Assembly (NCBI GenBank): GCA_037176725.1
Contig: JAZBRS010000049.1
Span: 38,060,001 to 38,124,000, forward strand
Direction of reading: 5' to 3'
From: Posidonia oceanica
Lineage: Eukaryota; Streptophyta; Magnoliopsida; Alismatales; Posidoniaceae
Length of the DNA: 64,000 nucleotides
A program made the translations under genes and the position numbers. Shown here in pieces: positions 16,961 to 63,344 of the stretch (its first letter is position 1; every line of letters starts with the position of its first letter). Under the pieces are notes generated by a model, which worked only from the letters and a program-made list of their open reading frames with translations, was not told where the DNA came from and made no database searches.

Positions 16961-17987
16961 ATGGTTTTAAAAATTGAACCGAACTAGCTGGTTCAACGAG
17001 ATTGAATCGAACCAGTTAAATATTGTGTTTTTAAAAGAGTAAACTAATTAGATGATTAAACCAGTATGAACTGCTGTGAACCAATTAAACCACCTGGTTG
17101 AACTGTCGATCTTGTGCCCTATATAAAACAAAAAAAACCAAACCTAAGAACTAAAACATGAAAACCCTAAGAGGAGAGAAGGCGATTTCAACTGCGGTCT
17201 GCCCTCTCCTCCTCCCCCACCTCTGGCCCTTCGGACAGAAGACGATCACCCATTGCGCCTTAGCCTCCCGCCTCAGCCCGCCTCCACCAGCCACCCGCCT
17301 CAGCCTGCCTCTGCCTCTCGCCTCGTGCCTTTGCCTCGGTCAACTGCCTTCGCCTCCTCCCTCCTGCATCTCTTGAGTCTTGCCCTCGTGCCTCTGCATC
17401 CTCCCTTCCCAGTCCCCACTCTCCTGCCTCTGCCTCTGTCCTCGCCTCGTGGCTCCTTCTGACTGCAAGTATTAAGTATCATTACTCATTAGCATGTATA
17501 TTTTTTGGTTTCACACTTTCACTGCTATGATAGCATGTATCAGTGATTTCACACTTTCAGTGGCAAGTATCATTAGCATGGATTTGTGAATGATTTTCTA
17601 GTTTATGAGCATGTATATCATTAGCAAGTATATCAGTAGCTTTTCTGGCTTCTGATTTATGAGCGTGATTTTCATGAGAACAGTTACATTTGAAATTAGT
17701 TGATTTTTTGTTTTGAATCATGTAACTTAATATGATTATGGTTGTGTTGACATCTCATTTTGACTGCTTGAAAGATGACAGACTCCTCTGGGAAGCTTGC
17801 TCGGACTCTGGGATGGCTCTCTTTTTTCAAATCCACCCTAAAACCTCACCAAACCCCAAAACCTTCACCCTAAAACCCAAAACCATCACCCAACCCAAAC
17901 TCAAGCCCACCTAAGGCTTAACCCACTTTTTAAACCAATTTTAAACCAAGGCCTAAGCCCATTTCAGCCTTTGGCCTCCTACGCTCA

Positions 17988-18045
17988 TTGGACGCAGGCA
18001 TGGGCTGCGTCCAATGTTGGACGCAACCTGTGCTGGCATCCATTG
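17988..18045. repeat. Start-proximal inverted-arm module of S1
   Basis: Four arms in order: GGACGC, GCGTCC, then after AATGTT, GGACGC and GCATCC. The last arm carries a CpG-type transition. It stands about 900 bp before the main array, the same place as the paired modules in the LTRs of C and S3. Confidence 0.75.
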
Positions 18046-18823
18046 CGCTGGGAGTTGCAGCAGCAGCTTCACCACCTCTGGCTCACCTCCCGTCCCCTCC
18101 GCCGCCCGTACACCACTTACTATCCATCCCCTCACCTCACTACAGCTACCCACTAGCTGCCAAGGCCGAGTAACTCCCTGCCAAGCCATCCACTCCCCCA
18201 CCGGTGGACAACTCGCTCACCTCCGCGGTCACTGCCACCAGCCGCATCTTCCTTGCCACCCACGACTTCGGCGACCACCTCCTAACAGCCCACACCCTCG
18301 CCTGCCATCCCTCGTGGCTTCCCCACTCACCACGCCCCTGTCAAAGCCTGCCACGACCTCTGCAACCTTAGCCTCCACCCACATGAACCCAACAAAACCA
18401 TTCCCAAATAGCAACATTCATGAGATCGCACAGCACACTACAGCCCTCCCCCCAGAAAATTCACCACCTCTAGCCCTTGTGCGATCTCCCACGATCGCCC
18501 CCAAGCATCCAGCCAACTCTCCTGAGCCTCCCTCGTGCCCAGCAAGCTCACCGGAGTTCCCACGGCTGCCATCTTCTGCAGCGCCGGCCGCAACAGCAAA
18601 CGCTGCCTCTGAGCTGCAACCAGGTAGGTTCTCCTCACTCCTAGCTAGTACACATACAAGGCAACATGTTAGAATAGCCCACTTGCACGCATGCCTCCTT
18701 GGTTGGCCAAAATGGCCTCGACCGCTGGCTGCGAGGAGGAGGAGGTGGGTGGAGCAATCCACCCACCCATTTCTAGCGCCAAGTATACCAACATGCTCGT
18801 TGTCACTTCCTCTTGCTTCCTAG
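18014..18823 (+). other. Open GC-rich stretch in the LTR, not a supported gene
   Basis: A 269-codon open frame rich in Pro, Ser, Thr and Ala with no recognised domain. It crosses the splice-donor match at 18624, and equivalent GC-rich zones in the other LTRs are not open in any shared frame. It is better explained as the long untranslated exon of the LTR transcript with high GC suppressing stops. Confidence 0.35.
18621..18629 (+). promoter_or_regulatory. Predicted 5' splice site in LTR S1
   Basis: CAG|GTAGGT at the end of the GC-rich zone. Matching donors occur at the equivalent place in the LTRs of A, C, S2 and S3, which is the main support. Confidence 0.4.
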
Positions 18824-18886
18824 CAAGTTGGATGGCGATTTTTGACCGCCTTGGCCACTGATCGTGGCCGGGGATCTTCCCGACCT

Positions 18887-20126
18887 GTTGGACGCAAACC
18901 CTGGTGCGTCCAACATTGGACGCGCCATAGGGCAGCATCCAACACCCTGCTGGTTTGTTATTTCGTTTTGCTTCTATTTTGCTTCCAAGCTTGCCATGCT
19001 TTACTTACATCTTTATGAGCTTATCATACTTCCTTACGTGTTTCTTGATGCTTTAGCATGCTTGGTTCGATGTTTGACCTTGCTTGGATCCATTTTCTGT
19101 GTTTTAGATCATTCTGCTGCTTGCCTGTGTTGGACGCTAGAGTGCACTGCGTCCAACGTTGGACGCTGGTGCATTCAGCGTCCTATTATTCTATTTGGCT
19201 TACACTTGCTTTAATGCTTGCATGATGCCATCACTTCTTATGTCTGCTTGATCCATGCTTGTATGCTTGTATTTAGCCCTCTTTGCAACTATTCCCAAGT
19301 TTGCTTGGCTTTATATCTGGGTTTTATGCAGGTTTAACGTCTGTGCCTCCCAAAGCATTGGACGCGGGAATTACTGGCGTCCTACATAGGATGCAGGTAG
19401 TGCTAGCGTCCAACACACTGGTTGAGTTTTCTTTATGCATGCTTTGCAGATGCTTTTCTTCTAGCATTTTTGTGTGATCCATGTATGCATGCCTAGCCTA
19501 TACTTGTTTGCAGCATCTTGAATGCATGCCATGATGTTTCTTCTTCCATTTTGCATGCCATTTAATCACATGCCTGTCTACATCTTGTTGGATGCCGAGT
19601 GCACCAACGTCCAATGTTGGACGCTGTGTATTCTGGCGTCCAACACCCTACAGTAGTTTAAATCATATTCATGCTTGCATCATGCCCCAGATTTCTTCCT
19701 TGGCTGTTTACCTTGAATGCTTTGCATGTTATACATGTCATACACTACCATACAGCATGTGCATCGCATCTGCATAGCCTGCATGCATGCATCCTTTTTA
19801 AAAAACCAAGACAGAGCTGTTGGACGCTGTGTTCACCAGCGTCCAACGTTGGACGCTGTGTTCACCAGCGTCCAACGTTGGACGCTGGTGATCTCAGCGT
19901 CCAACGTCCTCTGTCAGTTTAAAATCGTTTTGATCTTGCTTTTGGCTTCTAGGCCTTGCACCTTGGTTTTCCAGCATGCTTTATCCGTCCATGGTTTTAC
20001 GTTGCATTAAATCCATGATTTCCAAGCTTGCATACATGTTTTCCCTACTGTTTGCCTTCTGTCTGTGTTGGACGCTAGCTGTCCCATTGTCCAACATAGG
20101 ACACTGGTCACACCAACGTCCAGCAC
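18887..20126. repeat. Array of six inverted-arm modules in S1
   Basis: Modules start at about 18887, 19127, 19357, 19587, 19818 and 20067, so 229-249 bp apart. Each is about 55-60 bp: arm GTTGGACGC, loop of about 8-12, arm GCGTCCAAC, directly joined to a second such pair. The junction forms the 18-base palindrome GCGTCCAACGTTGGACGC where intact (19150-19167). The module at 19818-19907 has three pairs instead of two. Deviations are mostly transitions at CpG (GATGC, GCATC, GTCC without CG), as expected for methylated repeats. Spacers are GCATGC-rich but much less alike. Confidence 0.85.
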
Positions 20127-21753
20127 TTACAGTTGGCTAAACTCTGATTTTAAGCGCCGAATCCGTTTTGATTGCCGCCCCTTGCATTTCGTTGGTCCCG
20201 GTACATGCCTATGACACCCATGCATGTTGTCGGGACCCCGGTTTCAGTTTTACGCCTTGCATAGCGCGCTTTCCCGTGGTTTTCGCCTCGGATCTGTTTT
20301 ACTTGCTTCCCCTTTGCATGTCGCTTGCATTGCGTGGTTTTACCGGCGTTTTGCTTTATCGCCTGTATTTGCATTAAGGCAATGATGCTTACTGCCTGGA
20401 GTTCTTACGAACCAGGGTTCGCCCGGTTCGGAACACTGGCAGCGCTGCTGAGCGCGTAGACAGCACGTTTAATTTTCATACATGGCATTTAAGCACTTTA
20501 AGCAGTTAAAGCATTCATAACATGGTATTTATCGCCCACGGGCGTATAGCAAAGGCAAGCAATTGTCGATATCCGGCACATGCGAGCGTTTAGCCAAGAA
20601 AGACCGATTCCTCAGGTGTGTCGAGGGTACCTAACACCTTCCCCGCACGTAATAGGAGTCATTACCATTTCTCTGATCCGCAATGACCATTTTGCCCTCG
20701 TCCTTGGCACGAGTCATCTATTTTGCATAGCATTGCATTCATTTGTTTGTTTTCTATGCTTTTCCTTGGTTTTCCTTGTCTTCCTAATAATAGACTAGGT
20801 GGCGACTCTCTTTTGTCTTATCTTTGTTTTATTCGCGTTTTCCTGGTGTTTTCGAGTCGAGTTTCTCCTTGGATTCACTGTTGACTGCGACTTCCCTCCC
20901 TCTCTCACGGCATGATCGCATCGCAAGCTATGGCAGCGTTGCGAGGACCGCCGTGGGCCCAAGTGGCGGACGGTTATAGGTTGCTTTTATGACCTTTTTT
21001 GTCTTGGATCATATAATCATGGTTTATTATGTATACTAGTTAGTAACTTAGTATGCTATATTGTTATTGGTTCCATATTTATCATTTCATAATTCATATG
21101 CCTTGTTTTATATCAAATTCGGATTTATTTACATTAGATGTCAAACAGGTTGATTCATGTCTATTTGAAAATAAGTTATATATTGAAAATAGGTTTATAT
21201 TCTGTAGAAATAATATAAAAATTGGATTAAATTGGGTTAAATCGGGTTAAATCGGTTTTTAAATCCGAAATATAACATCAAGTCGGTCTAATTAATGGTT
21301 CACTTATTGATAACATCATGATTACATCATAATGACATCAACACCGATTGAATCAGTTTGAATCAAAACAGACGCTCTTCCGGTTTGCTCAAACTAAAAC
21401 CTTGGTTCAAACAGGGCCTGTCCCCTCCTCTTTTATGGCTTGCTGACGACGTGCATGTTGTTGGACGGTAAACAGTAATCCCTTGCACCAATAATGCATT
21501 CTCCATCAAATTAAATAAACGTGGAGAAATGGCAGGACTACTAGTGTACCCTTGCTACTTGTGAAGGATCATAAGTCACGTCGTTATCGGGACCACGCTC
21601 ATACTCAGATGCACTGGGTCAGCTTTACCTGCTGACTCAATTCTATGTAACTTTCAGTCTTTTACAATTCCAAGCAAACTCATCATTCAAAGAAAATTCA
21701 TGGAAATTACTCTGTCAAGAGGTTACAAACAAACAACACATAAGGGAAAAAAA

Positions 21754-22067: not shown

Positions 22068-22212
22068 CCCCCCCCCCCCCCCCCCCCCCCCTCTCCAAAT
22101 CTAGAACGAGGCACAAGACATGGCTGGTGGTCCATCTGACGTCCCCCACCGTTTTTACATTTTTACCAAGATCACCGTGATTTAATGGCCATGATTTGAT
22201 TTTAATGAGGGT

Positions 22213-22241
<29 letters not shown>
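22068..22241. repeat. C24 run and G29 run 121 bp apart
   Basis: Uninterrupted C from 22068 to 22091 and uninterrupted G from 22213 to 22241, on the same strand. They are complementary and could form a G:C foldback, and the G run is a strong quadruplex candidate. The lengths may be affected by sequencing. Confidence 0.85.
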
Positions 22242-22243
<2 letters not shown>

Positions 22244-23031
22244 GGGGGTGTGGGGGGAAGATAAGGTGCATGCTATGCTCTAATCAATAGTATCTTTTCT
22301 CTTGTCAAAGAGGTAAAAACAAAACACACGTAACAGTTAAAAAAAAAAAATCAAAATAATGTTACATTATTAATTTTTTATAAAATGACCAGACTAGCAA
22401 ATGACCAATATGGATTGAATGGGGTTAATGGATCGACAGCACGGGTATAATGGTCATTATGGGTCAAGAGAAAGGGTAAGGGCTCTTATTATGCACGGAA
22501 AAGGTGTTAGGCACCCCCGATACACCTAAAATCGGTCTTTCTAGGCTTTTCGCTTGTATATGCGGGAATATCGGTAATACTTGCCTTTAATTGTACGCCC
22601 GTAGGCGATAATACTATGCCATGATGAATGTTTTAACATACTTTAAATGCCTAAATGTCATGAATGCTTTAAATGTCAAAATACATGATGGAAATTAAAT
22701 GTGCAATCTATGTGCTCAGCAGTGCTGCCAGTGTTCTGAACCGGGTGTGCTTCGATTCATAAGAACTCCAAACAGTAAGCATCATCGCCCTTGATGCAAT
22801 GCAGGCGCGAAATAAAGCGTCGGGGGAAAACCATGCAAATGCAAAGAGGTGGCATGCAACATGTATTTATAAGTCATGCAAAACTTAACAAAGCCATGCA
22901 AAAAGACTAAACAAAGTTGAAATGCTATTATGTGACGACAATCAAAGCAGGGAAACAAAACCAAAGCGATACGAGTCGCGAACAAGGCGGCAACCAAGGA
23001 CTCAGTCCACTGTTTGGAGCTTGGCCTGAGT

Positions 23032-23343
23032 CGCCAGTCATCATGGTGACAGTGCACGTCGCCGCTGTGCACAACGACGGTGCAAGTCGCCGCTCTAACT
23101 GGCGGCTAAGGCTGCTGCAGGCAAGCCAGACAGCGAGCTTAGCCGGCCGACCAAGCCATGCAAATGGCCATGAAACCTGCAAACAAGCATTTACGTAGAC
23201 AGATGGCATAACAAGGAACACATTCATGCAATCAAAATGAAAAAACGATGCCTGGGTCACGCGATACACCGGCGCATAGTTGGGCTTGGAGACTGTAAAA
23301 ATACACAGTCGAGTCGCCGCAGTGACTGGCGACACGACTGGTA
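23032..23343. repeat. GTCGCC/GGCGAC modules, distal group, 3' LTR of A
   Basis: Arms GTCGCC at about 23033 and 23061, degenerate partners, and a further GTCGCC...GGCGAC pair at about 23312-23337. The partner copy in the 5' LTR is at 33062-33370. Confidence 0.65.
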
Positions 23344-24364
23344 GTCCCCTGGTCAGAGTTCGGCGCCAAATCACACGCCGATGGCAGTGCTTAAAATCAA
23401 ACCGATGATCTGGGAAGCTCGATGGTGTTCCCAGGAACATGCAAATACATTCAGATACAAAAATGAGGCTCTGGATCGCCTCACCCACCTAATGGGTTTC
23501 CTTGCCGGTGGCCGATGCTTCCGGCAACCATGGAGGAGGCCGGGGAGCTTCGGAGCTTACGCATGGCTCATGGGAAGCTAGGTGGAGGTGAGACGAAGCT
23601 AAGGAAGCAAACGGAAACGAAAACAAACAATCGGATGTCCCCAACCGCTTTCCTCGCCGTCGACGGCCGTCCACAACGCCGTCCGGCCATGAGGGAGGCC
23701 GGGAGCACACACAGAGGCACTTGGGATGCTCGCGAGTAGCAGGGGGTGTTGGTGGCTGTCCGGCGGAGCTAACGGGCCACGTGCTCAAAGGCCGGACGGC
23801 CTTACACAGGCGTTGGAGCTTGCCGGAGCCAAGGTAGAAGAAGGTGTAAACGGCAAAAGCAAGTGTCAGAAATGCGGAAAAATGCATGAAAACAATTTAC
23901 TACCTACGAGGAGTAAAACCAAATACAAAAGGGAGAGATTACCTGAGCGGAGGCGGTCGTCTTCTCCAGCTCCGCTGAGACCCAACGGCGGCAAACTCGG
24001 AAGGCAGGGAGCGGGGGGTGGGGGGGCGTGGGGCTCTTGGAGGCACGAAACGCTCGGGAAAGGATTGCTCTCGCACAAGGAAGGGATTTGGATCGCTCTG
24101 GAGGTCGGTCGGGCTGTGAATCGTGTGAAGTCTGGTTGGGAAGTGTGATGGGTTCTCTGTTTTGATCGGTCGAGCTTGCCAGGTGGAGCGGACGTCGTCA
24201 AGCGGAGGGGATGGCAAGTAAGTGTGGCAGGGGTGGCAGAGGACGTGAAAGTCCTCTGGAGGGGACGGGGAGTAAGTGTGCAGAGGCCAGAGGTGATGGC
24301 GAGTTAGTGCTGCTGGTCGGTGGAGGAATGTGACAGTAGGGCACGTGCGGGAGTTTGAACAGGT

Positions 24365-24450
24365 CTCGAGTCGCCGCTCCACCTGGCGACAATGCATGTC
24401 GCCTCTGAGATAGGCGACAACACTTAGTCACCATTGGGATGGGTGACCGC
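24365..24450. repeat. GTCGCC/GGCGAC triple module, start-proximal, 3' LTR of A
   Basis: Three successive pairs: GTCGCC...GGCGAC, GTCGCC...GGCGAC, and GTCACC...GGTGAC. In the third pair both arms carry matching changes, so the pairing is kept. The copy in the 5' LTR (34350-34433) reads GTCGCC...GGCGAC in the third pair. Confidence 0.8.
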
Positions 24451-24719
24451 ACTGAATAGGGCCTGCTGCAGTAAAATCCACGCCCTTTCCTTGCAGTTGG
24501 GCTGCTATTGGGCTTTGGTCAGGTTTGAAGTTAGGGTTTAGGTTTGGGTTTAAGTTTTGGGTTTGGGATTGGGATTTGGGTTTGGGATTGGGATTTCGGT
24601 TTAGGTTTAGGGTTTTGGTGGGATTAGGTTGGGGTTTGGGTGGGATCCGCTAAGCCATGATCCAAGTAAGCCTCCAGAGAGATCTGCTGACGACTAGCTG
24701 CCAAAATGGGGTGTCTGCG

Positions 24720-32258: not shown

Positions 32259-33061
32259 GTTGTCATAACCACGTCTCAAACCGCGATGTCGTAATCGACC
32301 GGCACAGGCAAAAAAATGAGAGGTCACAGAGAACGGCGAAGGAAAACAAAAGATAAAGCAAAAACTGAGTCGCCACCTAGTTTATTAAATCGGAAGACGA
32401 GGAAAATCAGAGAAAGCATAAAAAACATGCAAATGCATGCAATGTTATGCAAAAATATGACTCGTGCCTAGGATAAGGGCATAATGGTCATTGCGGGCCA
32501 AGAGAAAGGGCAAGGACTCCTGTTACGTACGGGGACGGTGTTAGGCACCCCAGATACGCCTGGAATCGGTCTTTCTAGGCTTTTCGCTCGCATATGCGGG
32601 AATGTCGGCAATGCTTGCTTTTAACTGTACGCCCGTAGGCGATAATGCTATGCCATGATGAATGCTTTAACATTCTTTAAATGTCTAAATGCCATGAATG
32701 CTTTAAATGTCAAGATACATGATGGAAATTAAATGTGCAATCTATGTGCTCAGTAGCGCTGCCAGTATTCTGAACCGGGCGTACCTCGGTTCATAAGAAC
32801 TCCATACAGTAAGCATCATCACCCTAGATGCAATGCAGGCGCGAAACAAAACGTCGGGGGAAAACTATGCAAATGCAAAGAGGTGGCATGCAACATGTAT
32901 TTATAAGTTATGCAAAACTTAGCAAAACCATGCAAAAAGACTAAACAAAGTTGAAATGCTATTATGCGACGACAATCAAAGTAGGGAAACAAAACCAAAG
33001 TGATACAAGTCGCGAACAAGGCGGCATCCAAGGGCTCAGTCCACTGTCAGGAGCTTGGTCT

Positions 33062-33370
33062 GAGTCGCCGGTCATTATGGTGACAATGCATGTCACCGCT
33101 GTGCGCAGTGACGGTGCAAGTCGCCTCTCTAATTGGCAGCCAAGGCTGCTGCAGGCAAGCTAGAAAGCAAGCTTTGCCAGCCGACCAAGCCATGCAAACA
33201 GCCGTGAAACCTGCAAACAAGCATTCACATAGATAGATGGCATAACAAGGAACACATTCATGCAATCAAAATGAAAAAATGATGCCTGGGTCACACGATA
33301 CACTGGTGCAAAGTCAGGCTTGGAGACTGTAAAAATACATAGTCGAGTTGCCGTAGTGACTAGCGACACG
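33062..33370. repeat. GTCGCC/GGCGAC modules, distal group, 5' LTR of A
   Basis: Equivalent of 23032-23343. A GTCGCCG arm lies at about 33065, GTCGCC at about 33120, and a decayed pair GTTGCC...AGCGAC at about 33344-33368. Confidence 0.6.
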
Positions 33371-34349
33371 ACCGACAGTCCCTTGGCCGGAGTTCGGTGC
33401 CAAATCACGCGCCGATGGTGGTGCCTAAAATCAAACCGATGATCTGGGAAGCTTGACGGCGTTCCCAGGAACATGCACATACATTCAGATTAAAAAATGA
33501 GGCTCTGGATCGCCCCACCCATCTAATGGGTTTCCTTGCCGGCGGCCATGGAGGAGGCCGGGGAGCTTTGGAGCTTACGCACGGCTCACGGGAAGCTAAG
33601 TGGAGGTGAGACGAAGCTAAGGAAGCAAACGAAAATGAAAACAAACAACCGGATGTCCCCAACCGCTTTTCTCGCTTTCGACGGCCGTCCACGACGCCAT
33701 CCGGCCACGAGGGAAGCTGGGAGCGCACACGGAGGCACTTGGGATGCTCGCGAGTAGTGGGGGGTGTTGGTGGCTGTTTGGTAGAGCTAACGGGCCACGT
33801 GCTCAAAGGCCGGATGGCCTCACACGGGCGTCAGAGCTAACCGGAGCCGAGGGAGAAGAAAGTGTAAATGGAAAAAGCAAGTGCCAAAAACATAGGAAAA
33901 TGCATGAAATCATCCACTACCTACGAGGAGTAAAACCAAATACAAAAGGGAGAGATTACTTGAGCGGAGGTGGTCGTCTTCTCCAGCTCCGGCGAGACCC
34001 AATGGCGGCAAACTCTAAAGGCGGCGAGCGGGAGGGGCTCTCGGAGGCATGGAACGCTTGGGGAAGGATCGCTCTCGCACAAGGAAGGGATTTGGATTGC
34101 TCTGGAGGTCGGTCGGGCTGTGAATTGTGTGAAGTCTGGTTGGGAAGTGTGATGGGTTCTCTGTTTTGATCGGCCGAGCTTATTAGGCGGAGGGGACGGT
34201 GAGTAAGTGTGGCAGGGGTGGCAGAGGACGCAAAAGTCCTTCGGAGGGGACGGGGAGTAAGTGTGTAGGGGCCGGAGGTGATGGCGAGTTAGTGCTGTAG
34301 GTCAGTGGAGGAAGGTGACGGCGGGGCGCGCGCGGGAGTTCGAACGGGT

Positions 34350-34433
34350 CTCGAGTCGTCACTCCACATGGCGACAATGCACGTCGCCTCTGAGATAGGC
34401 AACAACACTTAGTCGCCGCTGGAACGGGCGACC
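34350..34433. repeat. GTCGCC/GGCGAC triple module, start-proximal, 5' LTR of A
   Basis: Three pairs in a row: GTCGTC...GGCGAC, GTCGCC...GGCAAC and GTCGCC...GGCGAC. It sits about 1 kb from the distal group. Confidence 0.8.
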
Positions 34434-35438
34434 GCATTGAACAGGGCCTGCTGCAGTAAAATCCAGGCCCTTTCCCTGCAGTTGGGCTGCTATTGGGCTT
34501 TGGTCAGGTTTGAAGTTAGGGTTTAGGTTTGGGTTTAAGTTTTGGGTTTAAGTTGTGGGTTTGATTGGGTTTGGGATTGGGATTTGGGATTGGGCTTGGG
34601 ATTTGGGTTTAGGTTTAGGGTTTTGGTGGGATTAGGTTTGGGTTTGGGTGGGATCCGCCAAGCCATGATCCAAGTAAGCCTCCAGAGAGATCTGCCGATG
34701 ACCAGTTGCCAAAACGGGGTGTTTACATTTTGGCATGCTTTTTTTTCACTAAGCTTAGCATGTTTTACGAATACAAGTTGCATGCTGCCCCTTTGCATCG
34801 TATGGCTTTACCCGGCGTTTTGGTTTCTCGCCTGCATCTATTAGGGCGATGATGCTTACTATTTGGATTTCTTTAGAACCGTGGTACGCCCGGTTTAGAT
34901 ACCAACAGCACTGCTGAGCACATAGATCACATGTTTTGTTTACCCTCAAACATCATGGCATTAAGCACACATTTAAGCATACATTAAGCATTCATAGCAT
35001 AGCATAGCATTATCGCCTACGGACGTACAGTTAATGGCATGCACTGCCGACATTCTCGCATATGCCAGCGAAAAGCCTAGAAAGACCGATTCCGGGCGTA
35101 TGGGGGTGCGTAACACCTTCCCCATGCGTAACAGGAGTCCTTACCCTTTCTCTTAGCCTGCAATGACCATTATGCCCTTATCCTAGGCACGTGTCTTACT
35201 TTTGCATAACATTGCACGCATTCGCATGTTTTTCATGCTTTCCTCGATTTTCCTCGTCTTCGCATTTAATAGACGAGGTGGCGACTCCATTTTTGCTTTA
35301 TCTTTGTTTTCTTCTTATTTTCTAGTGTTTTCGAGTCGAGTGTCCTTCCTCGGATCCACCATTGGCCGTGACCTCTTATCGGTCGGTGTGCGCGAGCTTT
35401 GGCAGCATGCATCGCGTCGCCGGGACGGTTACAGGAAG

Positions 35439-36054: not shown

Positions 36055-36086
36055 TGTTGGACGCTGGTTGCTCCAGCGTTTAGCAC
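36055..36086. repeat. Single inverted-arm pair in LTR B
   Basis: GTTGGACGCTGG...CCAGCGTTTAGCAC, one pair rather than two. It corresponds to the last module of S1 (20067). Confidence 0.65.
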
Positions 36087-37739: not shown

Positions 37740-38152
37740 ACACGCAAAACGGTGCGAGAAACAGAAATGGCACATGAAACGGTGCAAAAAATAAAGCGGG
37801 CACGCAAAACGGTGCAAGAAGCAAAGCTAGTACGCGAAACGGTGTAAGAAACAAGATCGACGCGCAAAACGGTGCGAAAAACAAAGCCAGCATGCCAAAC
37901 GGTGCGAGAAACAAAGCAAGCACGCAAAACGGTGCAAGAAACAGAGCTAGCACGCAAAACGGTGCCAAAAGCGAAGCGGGCACACAAAACAGTGTGAAAA
38001 ACAAAGCAAGCACGCAAAACGGTGCGAGAAACGAAGTCGGCACGCAAAACGATGCAAGAAAACAAAGCAGGCACGCAAAACGGTGCAAAAAACAAGGAGG
38101 GCACGCGAAATGGTGCGAAAACAAAGCGGGCACGCAAAACGGTGCCAAAGCA
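37740..38152. repeat. About 30-bp minisatellite in S2, about 14 copies
   Basis: The unit is GCACGCAAAACGGTGCGAGA plus AACAAAGCGG, 28-31 bp with scattered changes. It alone accounts for the long cysteine/phenylalanine-rich open frames on the minus strand here. Confidence 0.9.
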
Positions 38153-46990: not shown

Positions 46991-48157
46991 CTACCAGTCT
47001 TAGCCAAGTCCTTCATTGTCTCTCCTCTCTGCTACTGCAAGGGGCTCGGCGATCCCCTGGCTGTACCGTCCGAGTGGTGTCCCTATCTCATAACCCCAAT
47101 GGCGAGATAAGTTCTCGAACATCAAAGAAGGGTTGGAACAAACGGCTAGGCTGGCATGTTCGAGATCTGGAATGAAATTAACCAGCTCAAACCGGTTGAC
47201 ACGATAAAGAATATCAGAGGGTTTAGGGTCGAGTTGGACAGTCTCTAAAGAGATGGAAGAGACAGCCTCGACTTTCTCCTTATCGAAGTTTTCCGCCATA
47301 ACAATGACAACGTCGTCACCCCAACGGAACTTGATCATGCGATGGAGAGTTGAGGGGAGCAGTTGATGCTTGTGGAGCCAAGGGCGCCCAAGCAGGAGGT
47401 TAAAAGAAGGCTCAAGATCAATGATGTAGAACTCTACATCGAAAACAACAAGTCCTATGGTGAGGGGAATGATTAGAATCCCCAACGCATCATGGTGCGT
47501 GTTATCAAAGGCGGTCATTCCCTTTGTAGCTGGTGTAATGTCCTCGGCTTTGAATCCGAGTCGGCTTGCTATGTGCAAGGGACAGACATTGAGGCTTGCC
47601 TCATTATCAACCAATGTTAAGGGAATTTGGAAAGTCTGATACTGCACTATGATGAACAGGGGTTGGTTATGGTTTATCCCCGCCGGAGGCAATTCATCAC
47701 TTGAAAAAGTGATAACTTGCGGAACCGCAATCATGCCCTCCATGGTCTCGAGGGCAACGGGCTCAATGGTCGGGGAGACGTGGGCAGCCTGGAAAACTCT
47801 AAGAAAGGCCTCCCTATACTCTGAGCATGTGTGGATGAGGTCCCAGATGGAAATATCAGCCTTCACCTTCTTCAACTGAGTGGTGATATCGGCAGAAGGC
47901 TGATCCTTCTTCGGAGTAATAGGGGATGAGGTGGAGGACTGAGTTGGGCTATCTACTGTGAAAGTCCTAGCAGGCTGTCCCACAGGAGGTGAAGGAGTTG
48001 GCTCTGGGTAACCAGGTCTGGATGTCAAAGCTGCTGGCTGGTACACCTTCCCAGACCACGTAATTTCTACGCACACTTGTGTGGCATAATCATATGGAAC
48101 ACGATGGGTGTCCCTGGTCAGGCTGATGACCAGTGAGGTGTGAGCTGCTAGCTCCAA
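46991..48157 (-). pseudogene. Aspartic protease region of element C
   Basis: The best-preserved open stretch of the element (385 codons). The retropepsin core has IPLTLVDNEASLNVCPL, where the catalytic motif would be D-N-G-S/A; here Gly is replaced by Glu, a single G-to-A change likely to inactivate. It continues with ASRLGF, DALGILIIPLTIG and the conserved FNLLLGRPWLHKHQLLPSTL, then KFRWGDD. The N-terminal 150 residues are Pro/Ser/Thr-rich spacer from gag. The protease would process the Gag-Pol polyprotein. Confidence 0.88.
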
Positions 48158-50662
48158 CGGGGCTACAGGCAGGCTGGCAGGAGAGGAAACTGACTGGGAT
48201 GGGTACTGAGCTGAGGGAGAAGGCCCTGATTGAGGTCAGACCGACAGACGGATAGGAGACTGAGCTTGGGATGGTGTGGCGGATGGCGCAGTGGTGCGCT
48301 CCGACTCTGCGGTCAACCGTATCATATGAATTGCCGACTCGGAACTAGCAAGTGTCGACTGATACAAGTGCACAGGAAAAGGCTCGGAGTTGTGGTGAAT
48401 CAAAGAAGAGGGGTCCACTACTGGTGTGGCAAGATCAGAAGAAAAGACACAATGAACTCTTGAGGGCCCGGCGCCTCCCGAGCTCGATTGTGGAGGCAAG
48501 GTCCTGGATAACTATGTTGGGGTGCAGAGGTGTAGGGCCAGGTGCAGGTGGTGGCACTGGAGTGGAGGTTGCCTCTTGAGTGTCGATAATGATGACCCTG
48601 CGGTCAATCAAATCCTGAATCGCGTTCCGCAATGTAAAACAGCTGTCAGTCGAGTACCCCGCGGTTCGATGGAAGCTGCAATAGAGGCTCGTGTTATACC
48701 AACGCGGAAGAGGACTCAGCGGTGGGCGAACCTTCGGAAGCCTCAGGAGTGACGCGACCTTGGGAAAGACGGCACTCAAAGATTCAACTAATGGAGTATA
48801 GTTGCACTGAGGGTGCTGAGGCCGTCCCTACCCCGGGCATCCCTGCCGGACCAGTGGAGCAAGATACACTGGTTGGGCAGTGGGAGTGATCTGTGGTGTG
48901 TGTCCTAGGTGTTGGAGCATATGTCACCTGACTTGGACCAGGCTGAGCCACCATGTTGATTGGCGTGGCACGGGACTAAACATATGCAACAGAGGGCTTT
49001 GGAGGATCTCTCCTCCTGGGGTTGTTGTTGCCACTGTTGTTGCTATTGCTGCCACTGTTAGATTTGGTAAATGCAGAGAGTGCAGGAAAGCTGCCGCTAC
49101 GAAGTGAGCCTTCCACACGGGCGCCCGCCTGAATCGAAGATGAGAAGGTGGTGGTAGGCTAGATGCTTAACATGCCCCCTTTGTCTGGCTGCGCACGTAA
49201 AATGATAATCTCGATGGACTCCTCATTGGAGGGCCTATCTTGAACTTGTGAGGCGAGGGTGCGCCATCCGCCGACGTACTCCCCGAATGGCTCATGGGGT
49301 CTCTGCCTAGTGGAGACAAGATCCTCACGCTTTGGGATCAAGTCAAGGTTGAAGGAGTATTGCTCCAGGAAGGCCTGACTAAGGTCGTTCCAAGTCCTGA
49401 TCGTGGCCATGTCAAGGGAAGTGAACCACTTGAGTGCGGGGCCAGTCAGACTCTTCTGGAATAGGCGGATCAGTAGCCTGTCGTCAGCCTGAAGCTGAGC
49501 AAGGTCTCCACAGTACGCCCGAAGATGTGAGATTGGGCAACCCTTACCGTTATACTTCTCGAATTCCGGGACATGGAAATTTGCAGGGAGTACTGCCTCT
49601 AGGAAATAACAGAGGTCCCGAAATAGGTAAGGTCGGCGGTCTCCACCCTGTGATGATCGTTGCGCTCTCTCTAGAACCCCCACTCTAGCAAGGAGTGTAT
49701 CTAAGGGCGCTACTGTTTATGGTTATGCAGGTAGGGCAGGAGCCACGTACGTTGAATAGGCTACCCCTAAGGGATCCTCTGGATCTACCATTGCACCACC
49801 TGGTGCCATGGAGCAAGGGTCAGCGTACCCATGTGATGGTGCTGAAGGAAGTGGTATGCTTGATGGAGGTAGGACCTGTGGAGGCACAAAAAAGGGATAA
49901 GCAGAAGACAGTGCTATGTAGGGTGCTGAATGAGGGAGCAACAACTGCTGCACTGGTATGGTGCCAGGCAGCGGGTTCTGTGCGTATTGTGCTCCTACCA
50001 GCCCAAGGGGGGTGGCCACCAGATACCAGAGGTGGATACTGTGCGCTAAATAGTATCTGTGCTGAAGGCACAGATGTCGCCCCCATCATCGGTGTAGTGA
50101 GAAGCTGGGGCGATGGCTGAGGCAGAGGTGCAGTAGGGTGTGCCTGAAATAGCAAAAATGGCTGTTAAGGGAACTCAAGAGTAGTTGGAACTACAAGTGG
50201 GCGAATAGACAGAGCCATGCCCTACAGTGTCTGGGCCATCTCCATCATATTCTGGTACTGCTCGTTAGGAGTCCCATCAGTGGGAAGACTGAAATGCAGG
50301 ATCGGTGAGGGACCAGAGGCCAAAAGTGACTGGGACACAGACTATCCATAGGGGAAGGATCCTACAATAGAAGAGGACTCAATAGAGTGGGTGCCAAAAG
50401 TATCGAAACCCTGAGTAAGGGGAGCAGTGAACTGGAAATCCGGAGCATGAGTGGCGGTCACTGAAACAGATTCAGTGACAAACTCCGGACTAACAAAAGT
50501 CTGCCGACGCCCTGAAATGAGCGGAGTGAAACTCCCAGGCGCCTGAGACTGGAATGCCTGATAGGAAGGAACAGCAGAAGTGACAGCAAAGGAGTAAGGA
50601 GTCAACTTCGGGACCTCCTCCAAAGCAATCGAAAGTGAAGGCTCGCTAGCACGTTGGGCCAT
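48158..50662 (-). pseudogene. gag of element C, broken
   Basis: The start at MAQ (50662) is shared with A. The N-terminal region is open to a stop at about 50342, then broken pieces with the Pro-rich segment (IPVQQLLLP...PGGAMVDPED). The gag core lies at 49683-49159 with FEKYNGKGCPISHL, DDRLLIRLFQKSLTGPAL, WFTSLDMATI, EQYSFNLDLIP and FGEYVGGWRTLA. The C-terminal part (48779-48435) holds the zinc-knuckle-like CSFHRTAGYSTDSC, with Y where A has H. A frameshift near 48480 leads to the Ser/Pro-rich tail ending near 48236. Layout and sequence parallel element A throughout. Confidence 0.85.
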
Positions 50663-52385: not shown

Positions 52386-53153
52386 GCGTTAGACGCTGGG
52401 ATTCCCAACGTCCTATGTAAGACGCACAGTATCCTGCGTCTAACACATAAAACCCAAATTTCAGAATATGACTTCTCTAAAATTTAATAAACCTCATGCT
52501 TAAATCATAGAAGTCAAGAAAAACAACTGGAATATGATGTAAATCATGATAGGCGTTCCAATATCAACTTCCAAGTTCAACTTAAACATTTCAGAAGATT
52601 ATCTTAGAAAATATAATTGTCTGGGATGTAAGACGCTATAGGCGCTGCGTCTTACATAAGACGCGAGCTCTACTGCATCTTACACTTAGAGAAACAGATT
52701 CTTTAAATATGGCCAAATAATCCAAGAGAATCAGTATAAATCCCAAAACAACATGTGAACAAGGTTAAATACATGCATGCAACATATGTCAGATCCCAGA
52801 GGATCAATAAAATCCCTTTTGATGAGTAAAAATAGGGGAAAATTGGACAGAAGTGTAAGACACTGTGATTTACAGTGTCTAACGTAAGACGCTACGTTTT
52901 CCAACGTCTTACACCTAAAAACTGCTTTTTTAGATTTAAACTCATGAAATAAAACTTGTTTTTGTTTTAAGTATTTTAATGGAAGAAAACATAATAAGAA
53001 TGGATCAAAATCCCAGTACGCATCACAAATTAGATATTAAGAAGTATTCAAAACATTTTATGAAGAAAAATATAGAAAACCAAGATTAGGAGCGTTGGAC
53101 GCTACCCTTGGTAGCGTCTTATGTAAGACGCACCAGACTTAGCGTCCAATACA
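52386..53153. repeat. Array of four inverted-arm modules in LTR C
   Basis: Starts at about 52386, 52626, 52854 and 53093, so 228-240 bp apart as in S1. Arms here are mainly GTAAGACGC/GCGTCTTAC and GTTAGACGC/GCGTCTAAC. The module at 53093 combines GTTGGACGC outside with GCGTCTTATGTAAGACGC in the centre. Confidence 0.85.
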
Positions 53154-53962: not shown

Positions 53963-54101
53963 TGTGTAAGACGTGTATCTGAGCTGTGTCTTACGTAAGA
54001 TGCTATCTCAGACTGCATCTTATACCCCAAGGAGCTTACAGTGTTAGACGCTGGATTTCCTACGTCTTACATAAGACGCAGGCATATCCAGCATCCAACG
54101 A
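53963..54101. repeat. Two start-proximal modules in LTR C
   Basis: Starts about 77 bp apart (53964 and 54041). S3 has the same pair at the same spacing. The module at 53964 holds GATGC facing GCATC, so both members of that pair changed. Confidence 0.8.
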
Positions 54102-54516
54102 CCTAGAGTAGATTTTGGGATATTCTAGGCTTTTTCTGGTTGGGCTTGGGCTTGAAATGGGTTTAGGCTTAGGTTCGGGGTTAGGCTTGGGTTTAGGCTT
54201 GGGTCTTGGATTAGGCTTGAGTTTAGGCTTGGGTTTAGGCTTGGGTTTGGGGTTAAGCTTGGGTTTAGGGTTGGTTTGGAATTGGTTTTAGGATTAGGTG
54301 GGGGCCGCCACAATCGAGCACATTCCTGGGAGAAAAACCGCCGACGAAGGACTACAAAATCAGGATGTCTACACAAAGGAAAAATCCTATTTTAGGGAAG
54401 AACACAAAGGAAAAATCATATATTCTTCCCACACAAGATATTATCAAGGATAAAAACCTAAATTGGAAGTGTACTTGAATCTATGATGAAAATCGGAGTT
54501 TTTGTCCTTTACCACG

Positions 54517-55569
54517 TGTGACCAAGATCGATGCGGCTAGGGCCCCCCGCAGGGTGGTCGGGTCACGGCCAACGGTGCATCCGAGAGGTACTCGACTCGA
54601 GGGAAACACCGGAAAATAGGCAAGCGCAGGAAAAACAAGAGAAAAGACTTGGAGTTGCCACCTAATCTATTAAAATCGGGAGACTTGGAAAATCGTATGT
54701 GAAAACATGCAAGAAACTTATGCAGTTCAAAACATGCAAATCCGACCCAAATGTGTATGACACATAGTCATTACGGTCCAGAGAAAGGGTAAGGACTCCT
54801 GTTACGCACGAGGAAGGTGTTAAGCACCCTCGATACGCCCGAGGAAGTCGGTCTTTCTTGGCCAATCCGCTCTTGTATGGCTAATGTTGGCGAATAACGT
54901 CGGTTTAAATTCGCCCAAGGGCGGTATGTAGCATGCATTTATAAACCGTGCAAAGCTTAGCAAAACCATGCCAAAAGGAATAATTAAAGTTGAAATGTCA
55001 TGACATGATGATAAACAAGTCAGGGAAGCAAAACCAAGACTAAACAAGTTTGGTAAACGAGAAACGAGGCGAAAAACGGGAGCTCTGTCCACTACATGGT
55101 CTCTGTTAAAACCATGCAGGTAATACGCAAGACCAACCCGCGCATCCCATACGCGCACAAAACAGTGGGCATTCATTACCCCAAATCCGTTGTTGCAAAG
55201 GTGCAAAACAAGAAAGACATGATCAAACAACATGCGTGGATGCTAGAGCAAGCACTGGAAGTGATCAAATGCGGAAAACGATGTTCGAATAAAAAATAAA
55301 GCTTGAAATCAAGATGCAGCAGAGTAAAAGTGTTGGACGCCTGAATACACAGCGTCTTACCTAAGATGCTGGAATTCTTAGCGTTAACAAATAAACCCAG
55401 GTTCTGAAGGATATGGATGCACATTTCGGAAAACAATGACTTTAATGACATGTAAAAACTATGGACAGGTAAATCAGGCTAGATACTCAATTCCAATAGC
55501 AAACAAAACTCAGAAATAGGGTGCAAGCTTCAAGTCGGGATGCAATAGCCTTGAGGTGTTAGATGCTGT
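54517..55569 (-). mobile_element. LTR fragment, 3' part only
   Basis: On the minus strand it ends TCACA (at 54517) and carries the terminal AGGTGGCAACTCC zone, the conserved 3' block (54765-54910) and one module (55331-55388). It stops in the middle of a second module (55556-55569), exactly where the region D start lies. The 143 bp between it and C are not recognised. The rest of this LTR was not found. Confidence 0.75.
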
Positions 55570-55786: not shown

Positions 55787-56075
55787 CGTTATACGCTGGA
55801 ATCCCAGCTTATAACGTAAGATGCTGGTTTTCTAGCGTCTAACGTTGAAGCCTAGTGCCAGACACAAACTTTCCTTATTTAGCCAAATACGAAATCCATG
55901 TTTTTGCCTTCTTTAGAATCTGTTGACCAGTCAAGGCAATTAAAATTGGTTTAAAGACTCTTAATCAACCTTTATTAGGGGAATATTCCTTTATTCTAGT
56001 AGCTGTACCTCGGAGGTCGTTATACGCTGCGATTCCAGCTTATAACGTTATACACTGGGATTCCAGCTTATAACA
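55787..56075. repeat. Two inverted-arm modules in region D
   Basis: Modules at 55787-55846 and 56018-56075, 231 bp apart. Arms include CGTTATACGC...CAGCTTATAACG, a third arm sequence for the same architecture. The second module repeats that pair twice. Confidence 0.7.
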
Positions 56076-56852: not shown

Positions 56853-58136
56853 AATTTCATTCTCTTCTTCTTCCTTGCTATCTTCAATTCTAGTTTTTAG
56901 TTTTTTTTTGTAAGTTTTAAGGTAGTGGTGAAATTCCTCGTAGTGTTTTGAGGTGCTGTGACCCTTCTCATTTTTTTCCACGTCCAAATAACTGAAACCA
57001 CCTCCCTTTTTCTCTGAGATTCTTGGGGGTGGGGGTGGTTCGTAAAAGCCACTGATTTCCTGTAAAAAAAATCTCTGTCAGTACATTATACGCGTGATTT
57101 GGAGAGTTTAACATTAGATGCCCCACTACCAGCGTCTAACGACCACTGAATAGGAGCCTTGCTATTTCAAAAGTTTTCTTTGATTTTTTTTCATAATTGG
57201 CCCAAAGATTGAGGTGTGAGGTGATCGGCTTTTCCGTAGGGACCGAAACCTCATTTTCTTTTGGGTGCTTTGCAAAAAGACCAAATAACAAAAAAAAATC
57301 GAATTTTTTTTTCTATATGACTTGCATAGTCCTATTTAGGGAACTAATTTGATTGTGTCTTATCTTGGATTACATAAAGTAACCACTTGAATCCTGAGCA
57401 CCTCCGTTGCAAAGGACTTAAGAAAGGTGTTTGTGTTGTCACTTGCTTTCACAAGGGGCACTCTTCTTTCCCTTACTCTGAGTGGAAGTAAGTTAGAATC
57501 CCAAGTCTAGATTTGCATTCTCCCTCCTTCGGTGGTTTGTTTATGTTTGTTGTGATTGATATGCGAGGGACCCGATCAATCCTGAGTACGCTGGGCTCTA
57601 CCTCTATGGGGTAGGGACCTAAGTGTATTTAGGCTCTCCCTAATATCCTTAGGAGTTGAGGTAGGGGGTAGTACCAAAAAAAAAGAAAAAAGAAAGATAT
57701 TTAACCATTTTTGTGAGGATCCATAGGAATCCTTAAAAAAAAAAAGGAAAAAAAAGAAGCCATACCCAAGCCTTAAGGTACCCTGAGAACTACACAGGTT
57801 TAAGACACTAATATTAAAGCGAAAATATAAATCAAAACTTTAATCGCTGTTTGAAAGTATTTCTGTGAAGTTCTCTGAAACAGGGTGTTAGACGTCGAAA
57901 TATCTACGTTTAACGTTAGACGCAGGAGATACCGCGTCTAACACATTCTCTGATTGGCTGTTTATTTTTAGCTTCTCTGTGTGGATGAATTGCAGGGTAA
58001 AACATTGAAAAACCATGAACAGGATAGCTACAGTTTTATATTCAGTTCTTACTTTTTTAGGAACCTGTATTAAATTGCAAAGCTTCTGTAATTTCTTTTT
58101 TCCCATTGTAATTACTCGCAACCCTTCCTTTATATA

Positions 58137-61077: not shown

Positions 61078-61757
61078 GTTGGACGTTGGTAAGCACAGCG
61101 TCCAACGTTAGATGCATGCACTGAGGCGTCTAACACATAAAACTCAGATAAATCATTTTAACTCACGTAAATCCAAAAAACACTTGGAATATGATATAGA
61201 CCATGACATACACTTTAATGTCCCTTTTCAAACTTATTCAAACATTCTCAAAAGATTATGTCAAAGAAGACACTTAGGGATGCGAAATAATATGGCAAAT
61301 GAGTTAAATAAACCCTTAAATAAATAAATCCAAAGAAAACAGAAGAAAGTTTAATCTCAGATGAAATGTATTTAATCTGACTGCAAACATAAAAAAAATC
61401 TGATCCTAAATTCTATTGACAGACATTCTGTGAAATAAAGGCACTAGAATCTGAACAGAGGTGTTGGACGCCACTGAATACAGCGTCCTATGTAAGACGC
61501 TGCAACAAATGGCGTCTTACACCCTATAAACTCATTTCAATGTAAAAACTCAAGGAAGAAGCATATTTTCAATTCAGATGCTATTATAAATGAATTATGA
61601 TTGGGATGAAACAAAATAGACTATATATAGCATGGACAAACCAACAGAAGATGTATAAAATATTTTACAAATGAAAATATGCGAAATGAACTTCAGGACG
61701 TTGGACGCTGGCCATGGTAGTGTCCAACGTTGGACGCACCAAGCTCAGCGTCCAATG
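61078..61757. repeat. Module array in S3
   Basis: Modules at 61078-61137, 61461-61523 and 61699-61757. The last two are 238 bp apart; the first gap is 383 bp, so one module present in LTR C is missing or decayed. Arms include GTTAGATGC/GCGTCTAAC and GTAAGACGC/GCGTCTTAC pairs. Confidence 0.8.
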
Positions 61758-62574: not shown

Positions 62575-62713
62575 TGTTGGACGCCTACCTGAGCAACGTC
62601 CAATGTAGGACGCTACCTCAGGTAGTGTCCAACACCCGAAAGAGCTGAAAGGTGTTAGACGTTGGATTCCATGCGTCCAACATAAGACTCGGGCATATCC
62701 AGTGTCCAACGAC
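62575..62713. repeat. Two start-proximal modules in S3
   Basis: Starts at 62575 and 62652 (77 bp apart), about 876 bp from the array at 61699. Both distances match LTR C (77 and about 871). Confidence 0.8.
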
Positions 62714-63344
62714 CTAGAGAGTATTTTGGAATATTTTTTGGTGTTTTTTGGTTGGATTTTGGTTGGATTTTGGTTGGGCTTGAACTTGGATTTAGGCTTG
62801 GTTTAGGGCAAGGCTTAGGTTTGGGCTTGGTTTTCGACAAGGCTTGGGTTTGGCCTTGGGTTTAGGTTTAGGCTGGGATTGGTGAATAGGTGGGGGCCTC
62901 CATGACCGAGCACATCCTTGGGAGAAAACCGTCGATGAATGACTACAAAATCGGGGTGTAAACACCGAGAAAGTGGGAGGTGCAGCAAAGATACGATCCA
63001 TGAACATTTGCAGGTCTGCTATTCCATATGGCAACGGGAAGTCACTATCTGGCCGGGACGCTCCAATCTGAGTTACACCAAGAAGGCCATGAACATCCTC
63101 CACCAGGATTGTCATCTCATAGCCCCCAAGGATCTGGACTCCAGAAAGTGCATAAGGCGTGAAGCAGAGGCCAGTCCAAGGTAGTTCCCAACAAGTCCAG
63201 GAGCCCATCGAAGCTTATACGTGTCAAAACAATCTTCCTTGCCAGAGCCCAAGGCACAAAGTCCTTCACCCAAGAAGAATAATAAGGGAAGTCATTGTCA
63301 AAGCAGGGTGTCTTTGTAAAATTAAGGATCTCTTGCAAACAAGA

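Follow-up and report, generated by a model that had tools for sequence, protein, structure and literature searches.

The closest described systems for the repeats discussed here come from the Sireviruses, Ty1/copia elements whose long terminal repeats (LTRs) carry high-copy palindromic repeats with dyad symmetry, the RM boxes, which are clustered shortly upstream of the TATA box (PMC2829016; Bousios et al. 2010). These boxes were called Sirevirus-specific within the Ty1/copia set compared in that paper, and a cis-regulatory role was proposed for them, the authors themselves saying that experimental confirmation was lacking; one of 13 elements, Tnd-1, is without the CGG-CCG core (PMC2829016). 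Here, we analyze palindromic modules in retrotransposon LTRs of Posidonia oceanica, starting from a stretch of 64,000 nucleotides (contig JAZBRS010000049.1, positions 38,060,001 to 38,124,000; below, the window, with coordinates counted from its first base). Tentatively, and ahead of the alternatives weighed below, we read the modules as family-specific palindromic cis-boxes, similar to those of Sirevirus LTRs, that are carried by Ty3/gypsy-like elements and kept symmetric by copying between their two halves.

How do these modules compare with the described systems? Like the RM boxes, they are high-copy dyad palindromes in LTRs, with an element-specific sequence around a common core, and in some elements boxes also occur outside the LTR, those of the Sireviruses lying upstream of env (PMC2829016). 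The RM boxes, in contrast, belong to Ty1/copia elements, measure 10-20 bp, mostly have a CGG-CCG core and are clustered over 300-500 bp (PMC2829016), whereas the Posidonia oceanica boxes are 57-58 bp long with GT...ACGC / GCGT...AC arms, lie about 230 bp apart, show two-sided changes, adjoin pieces with Retrotrans_gag and RVT_1 matches and have no CGG-CCG core. Strong predicted folding is shared with the LTR palindromes of maize Sireviruses, which are small-RNA hot spots (PMC10760457), but the Posidonia oceanica carriers are Ty3-like LTRs. With the tandem repeats of Tat/Ogre elements they share the probable lineage and short tandem arrays that vary between families, although those repeats lie in the 3' untranslated region and palindromes go unmentioned in the available passages of the source (PMC7004042). 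A first-pass annotation of the window had considered the pattern unexplained by known LTR function, a statement that needs qualifying now that the Sirevirus boxes offer a parallel (PMC2829016). Among the literature matches listed, which leave most of the subscription literature uncovered, none appears from its title and opening lines to describe palindromic boxes in Tat/Ogre LTRs, and the matches listed for the letters of the module arms were all unrelated by title. If our reading holds, palindromic LTR boxes of high copy number, described from the Ty1/copia Sireviruses, occur also in Ty3/gypsy-like elements that are very abundant.

The window was searched for the unit GTTGGACGC-N-GCGTCCAAC, with at most 4 mismatches in 18 and loops of 3-59 bases. 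This gave 83 matches, 37 of them with a loop of 10 (13 matches) or 11 (24 matches); another 19 lie at loop 38-40, which is the outer-arm distance of one module, and the remainder are scattered. Three first-order Markov simulations yielded 5, 5 and 6 matches over all loop lengths, and exact 8-bp inverted repeats number 306 against 14, 7 and 13 in simulations, many of the 306 being AT-rich and outside modules (display was limited to arms containing 3 or more G/C). A chance origin of the units is rejected by the simulations and by the genomic control described below, in which the pattern read backwards has no match.

The first-pass annotation had reported six evenly spaced modules, 229-249 bp apart, in the LTR-like segment S1 (17746..20800, + strand), whose approximate ends are TGTTGACATCTC at the start and the primer-site side GGTGGCGACTC at the end; the segment was recognized by its sequence and by two stretches, 17745-17969 and 20314-20842, that resemble the ends of LTR pair A. 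All six are present, starting at 18887, 19129, 19357, 19587, 19819 and 20067, with measured spacings of 242, 228, 230, 232 and 248 bp. The unit search returned modules 1 to 4 (18887..18943; 19129..19186, with a single-hairpin fold of -39.9 kcal/mol; 19357..19414; 19587..19644; all +). Module 5 (19819..19905, +) proved to be a triple 29-bp unit forming a near-perfect long palindrome (-76 kcal/mol as RNA; period 29 and 3.1 copies by TRF), module 6 (20067..20124, +) has degenerate arms, and the unit search added a seventh module upstream (17987..18044, +) that the annotation had lacked. In total, S1 holds 15 units in 7 modules, and the palindromic dyad repeat is thus present in many copies in this LTR-like segment.

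The further arrays named in the annotation, in LTRs C and S3, in the fragment at 55332, in region D (55788 and 56019) and as a single unit in LTR fragment B (36056..36084, +, unit search), were likewise all recovered. Those of C and S3 lie on the minus strand, in LTRs (C, 54385-51905; S3, 62975-60604) that align as homologs with 66% identity over 2,344 columns and have boxes at corresponding places. C contains modules at 52388..52444 (unit search and C/S3 alignment), 52628..52683 (of the GTAAGACGC/GCGTCTTAC type and mostly facing a gap in S3), 52855..52912 (C/S3 alignment) and 53094..53150 (TTGG-type outer and TAAG-type inner arms), with upstream modules at 53966..54023 and 54043..54099 (the latter by unit search and C/S3 alignment). 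S3 contains modules at 61078..61134, 61463..61520 and 61700..61756, with upstream modules at 62576..62633 and 62654..62710, all five by unit search and C/S3 alignment. Also on the minus strand are the modules of fragment D at 55332..55388 (one arm 1 base short), 55788..55843 (one GTTATAAGC/GCGTATAAC unit) and 56019..56074 (GTTATAAGC arms in both units), and one in an unassigned stretch at 57887..57942, whose orientation is uncertain.

Each module consists of two half-palindromes of 28-29 bp, which the first-pass annotation had taken for a double hairpin. The annotation was right about the regularity of the array and about its inverted symmetry, and both levels of symmetry are present, but a module is somewhat better read as one quasi-palindrome of 57-58 bp. 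The minimum-energy fold crosses the module center as a single hairpin in 16 of 21 window modules (a set that omits the single unit in B, the module at 55332 with its short arm, and the leading unit of the triple at 19819). When these 21 modules are aligned as full palindromes, 77.1% of cells are paired compared to 70.1 after shuffling, and 66 cells show two-sided changes compared to 39.8 (none of 500 shuffles as high in either case); the two-hairpin structure gives 75.4% paired versus 70.9 (0 of 500) and 56 two-sided cells versus 38.9 (3 of 500). These shuffles leave the relatedness among modules in place. A unit hairpin as the sole symmetric level is weakened, the unit arms matching shuffles and the full palindrome scoring better.

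The loops carry the same symmetry. Comparison of loop 1 with the reverse complement of loop 2 in the 21 window modules gives a score of 60, where permutation gives 0.0 overall and 13.6 within LTRs (0 of 20,000 as high); for 74 non-redundant genomic modules (38 of 112 dropped as at least 85% identical, with some chained units overlapping) the score is 82, as against -38 over all modules and -2 within locus (0 of 5,000 each). The annotation's description of arms that are kept while loops vary is therefore accurate for loops compared between modules, but the two loops of any one module are complementary to each other, and the arm cores vary.

A genome-wide pattern search, as proposed in the first-pass annotation, was run with three arms on the host assembly, a single genome of 2,962,952,704 bases (2.96 Gb) in 80 contigs. 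The exact three-arm pattern has 23,865 forward and 23,831 reverse matches, 47,696 altogether, while the pattern read backwards has 0 matches in the whole assembly. Since intact four-arm modules match on both strands, the number of modules is below that sum. Loops varied among the 100 genomic matches listed. In 200 kb around the first matches listed, 215 of the 222 units with loops of 6-16 have a loop of 10 or 11, and the reversed-arm control gives 3 matches in the same DNA; five further 10-kb stretches picked by position contain 2 units, with 1 match for the control. The module phenomenon is real and much larger than the window. With tens of thousands of natural replicates, joint change of the arms becomes traceable, and selection versus copying between arms becomes testable in one genome.

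Joint change was followed in a scan that left the three core bases free, and 158 units were retained after 40 of 198 had been dropped as at least 90% identical. Exactly complementary cores occur in 67 units, compared to 48.2 when cores are permuted among all units (0 of 10,000 as high) and 55.8 when they are permuted within locus (32 of 10,000). Counted by base, 352 of 474 are complementary, compared to 297.5 and, within locus, 316 (0 of 10,000 each). The core variants (TGG, AAG, TAT) differ by several bases together. Across the genome, two arm types were counted over arms 1, 2 and 3 (49,240 matches). The pairing arms 1-2 have odds ratios of 474 and 21 and the pairing arms 2-3 have 407 and 18, whereas the non-pairing arms 1-3 fall below both, with 31 and 1.3. 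In the comparison of C with S3, which uses five shared module pairs and omits 52628, 6 of 37 changed arm pairs are two-sided with pairing retained under module pairing, and 137 of 180 arm bases are shared, against the 66% identity of the two LTRs overall.

The uniformity of the arms and their placement point to a cis-regulatory box; that cores and loops drift jointly points to copying from one half to the other. In the mechanism we propose, arrays would have grown as units (28-29 bp) were duplicated, and likewise boxes together with their spacers (about 78, 91 or 230 bp). The arms, whose uniformity far exceeds that of the loops, would most likely be recognized by a DNA-binding protein that regulates LTR transcription, and the symmetry of cores and loops would be restored as long as copying of the element continues, probably when the template switches from one half to the other; template switching has been put forward as a process that generates and preserves stems (PMC8794818). 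Compensated cores and complementary loops are left unexplained by a plain sequence-specific binding array, one of the options raised in the annotation. After insertion, symmetry would be lost one base at a time, as is seen in two LTR pairs of single insertions. The parts compared there, the arms of 6 units of element A and 3 modules of a second element described below (one of these modules unchanged), show 14 one-sided changes at paired positions and 1 two-sided change, which lies in two CpG sites. In dead copies, symmetry decays one base at a time and no repair is seen.

Several observations weigh against the reading as cis-boxes with copying between halves. Loops are also alike directly, both in the window and among the genomic modules (66, compared to -42 overall and -3 within locus), because the units themselves are part-symmetric, and the complementarity is in part accounted for by the duplication of such units. 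Most of the changed arm pairs between C and S3 are one-sided, 31 of 37 under module pairing (for 22 of these, one copy or both lack pairing); under unit pairing the counts are 21 one-sided, 6 two-sided with pairing kept and 5 two-sided with pairing not kept. Within single LTRs or loci, arm matching is mostly no better than permutation in the window and genomic sets alike, arms 3-4 of the 74 genomic modules being the exception (12 of 5,000 permutations as high within locus), and in 38 units of the window the unit arms do no better than shuffles, 137 of 500 of which have as many paired cells. Because the units were detected by means of an arm consensus, arm conservation is partly a matter of data selection, and the genome-wide odds ratios count copies, not events, with arms 1 and 3 also lying further apart. 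Finally, all of the evidence comes from the sequence of one genome.

Perhaps the letters matter less than the symmetry. If one half templated the other at each copying, arms and loops would drift together while a structural signal, a cruciform or a dimer site, was kept; such a self-renewing DNA palindrome would escape sequence-based host recognition in its letters and stay readable in its symmetry, but we consider it rather unlikely. We give about the same low credence to a role at the RNA level, where transcribed boxes would form long hairpins with a role in the element RNA (export, dimerization or splicing control) or would feed host small-RNA production. The folding data speak for such a role, with 12 of 23 module sites contained in a 110-nt window that folds below -40 kcal/mol on one strand or both and 11 falling short, and with 39% of the 110-nt windows that hold a whole module passing this value compared to 4.7% of the others; -40 kcal/mol per 110-nt window is the cut-off for miRNA-like hairpin regions used for maize, where Sirevirus LTR palindromes attract small RNAs (PMC10760457). 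A splice-donor-like CAGGTAAGT upstream of the array in some LTRs, scoring 8-9 in 4 of 10 gaps, points the same way. Selection on the sense RNA, however, predicts an excess of G.T over A.C mismatches, and in 47 oriented modules (20 of the window, omitting 57887, and 27 genomic, oriented by nearby markers or homology) there are 60 G.T and 55 A.C (p 0.71; 61 versus 56 under unit pairing). This equality gives no sign of sense-RNA selection, and hence no support to the annotation's structured-RNA option on the sense strand, in a test of limited power that is diluted by post-insertion decay. Nor is it evident how attracting silencing would benefit the element.

Symmetry could also be kept without any function, by template switching in replication or reverse transcription. 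In favor of such purely mutational self-maintenance, loops that differ between modules are nevertheless complementary within a module, core variants differ by several bases at once, and stems have been proposed to be made and kept in this way (PMC8794818). Arms far more uniform than loops, with 47,696 exact matches of one type (the units having been found via arms), and boxes at matching places in C and S3 fit it poorly, and the dead copies without repair mean that repair would need a tie to element copying; we regard a functionless palindrome as doubtful. Ordinary decay of a 235-bp satellite-like duplication in one LTR family, with the hairpins as leftovers, strikes us as highly improbable. 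Weak residual spacer similarity (mean z 1.1-2.1), the mostly one-sided arm differences between C and S3 and the frequency of tandem arrays in Tat elements (PMC7004042) are in its favor, but loop complementarity persists within modules where spacer similarity is nearly gone, and C and S3, 66% identical overall, share 137 of 180 arm bases.

The spacing itself was read as the trace of an old tandem duplication, as the sequences of the spacers would suggest. Of the 67 spacings shorter than 1,500 bp in the genomic sample, 31 measure 220-259 bp and 11 measure 60-99 bp, and in eight arrays the spacers are weakly alike (the mean z values above, one per array). Recent tandem duplication is rejected, the spacers being only weakly similar; the recent duplication of 235-bp units with high spacer identity that the annotation had named as an alternative is not what is seen. 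The fixed spacing may be inherited. Newer duplications of box plus spacer, about 78 bp and about 91 bp, are found in the genomic stretches L015, L018 and L026, and module triplets about 91 bp apart with A-rich spacers are common to L015:8378-8640, L018:901-1160 and L026:6490-6750.

Which elements carry the boxes? Ten pieces of open reading frames (ORFs) in the window were scanned for protein domains; two match Retrotrans_gag and one matches RT_RNaseH plus RVT_1 (RVT_1 slightly below its cut-off), matches that we take to be of Ty3 type rather than copia type. LTRs C and S3 both have GGTGGCGACTCC at their 3' ends, a candidate primer site that presumably matches tRNA-Arg, a non-chromovirus primer type; our source for the tRNA types of retrotransposon lineages is PMC6317226. 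The carriers are probably plant Ty3/gypsy-like elements, Tat/Ogre-like. Another of the ten pieces, in the pol region (47000-48235, -), has a weak G-patch match (E 2e-4, slightly below the curated cut-off). Its 25 organism-named relatives are all plants (Tasmannia, Vitis, Mucuna, Vicia), most of the rows being nameless, and some of these plant relatives are likewise labelled G-patch.

The annotation had placed the modules inside LTRs, which holds for many copies but not for all. A 14.5-kb element running from L015:1832 to L016:6320 has 1.31-kb LTRs that are 96.6% identical with TG..CA ends, a 5-bp target-site duplication (CTCCT) and modules in both LTRs, and it also has an internal module triplet, about 91 bp apart; boxes are therefore not confined to LTRs. 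Six gag/pol pieces of the window have no match in this element, and the ORFs of at least 200 amino acids listed across the two stretches that hold it measure 208, 202 and 220 amino acids; it is possibly non-autonomous. With a 17-base LTR marker, which misses diverged LTRs, 47 of 139 unit clusters lie at most 3.3 kb upstream of the marker (27 of 117 with the window excluded), these zones making up 16% of the DNA.

Other box families occur in the window. The element A 3' LTR (22443..24714, -) and its 87% identical 5' partner (32477..34722, -) have different palindromes, GTCGCC-N9-GGCGAC, with a unit period of 28-29; in the 3' LTR, units start on the minus strand at 24447, 24418, 24390, 23333, 23106 and 23050, with one 227-bp spacing. 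The arms of family A differ from those of the main family, and the 28-29 period is common to both. The LTR-like fragment F (37741..38149, -) holds a 30-bp tandem array of 13.6 copies directly upstream of a conserved LTR block, where palindromes sit in other LTRs. The arrays of A and F, which may or may not be homologous, suggest that box sequence turns over under a shared layout.

A common TATA was not seen by eye across the LTRs read, and the conserved LTR motif GGTGCCTAACACCTTCCC has 0 matches in IMG/VR viral contigs. In the LTRs of A, TATAAATA is located in the interval from the boxes to the conserved 3' block. The splice-donor-like CAGGTAAGT variants (18621-18629, +; ~53605, ~62212 and ~23945, -) sit in the gap that separates the upstream module from the array, at a point where the sequence turns T-rich. 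Out of 9, the donor-like site scores 8 or 9 in four of ten LTR gaps and 6 or 7 in the other six (7 in A3), and a leader intron containing the array is possible. Telomere-like repeats of the CCTAAACC type lie near the LTR 5' ends of S1 (17835-17899), A (24530-24641 and 34515-34649), C (54140-54298) and S3 (62746-62889), and a 49-base G-rich tract at 22209-22257 has 83% matches to a pure G run.
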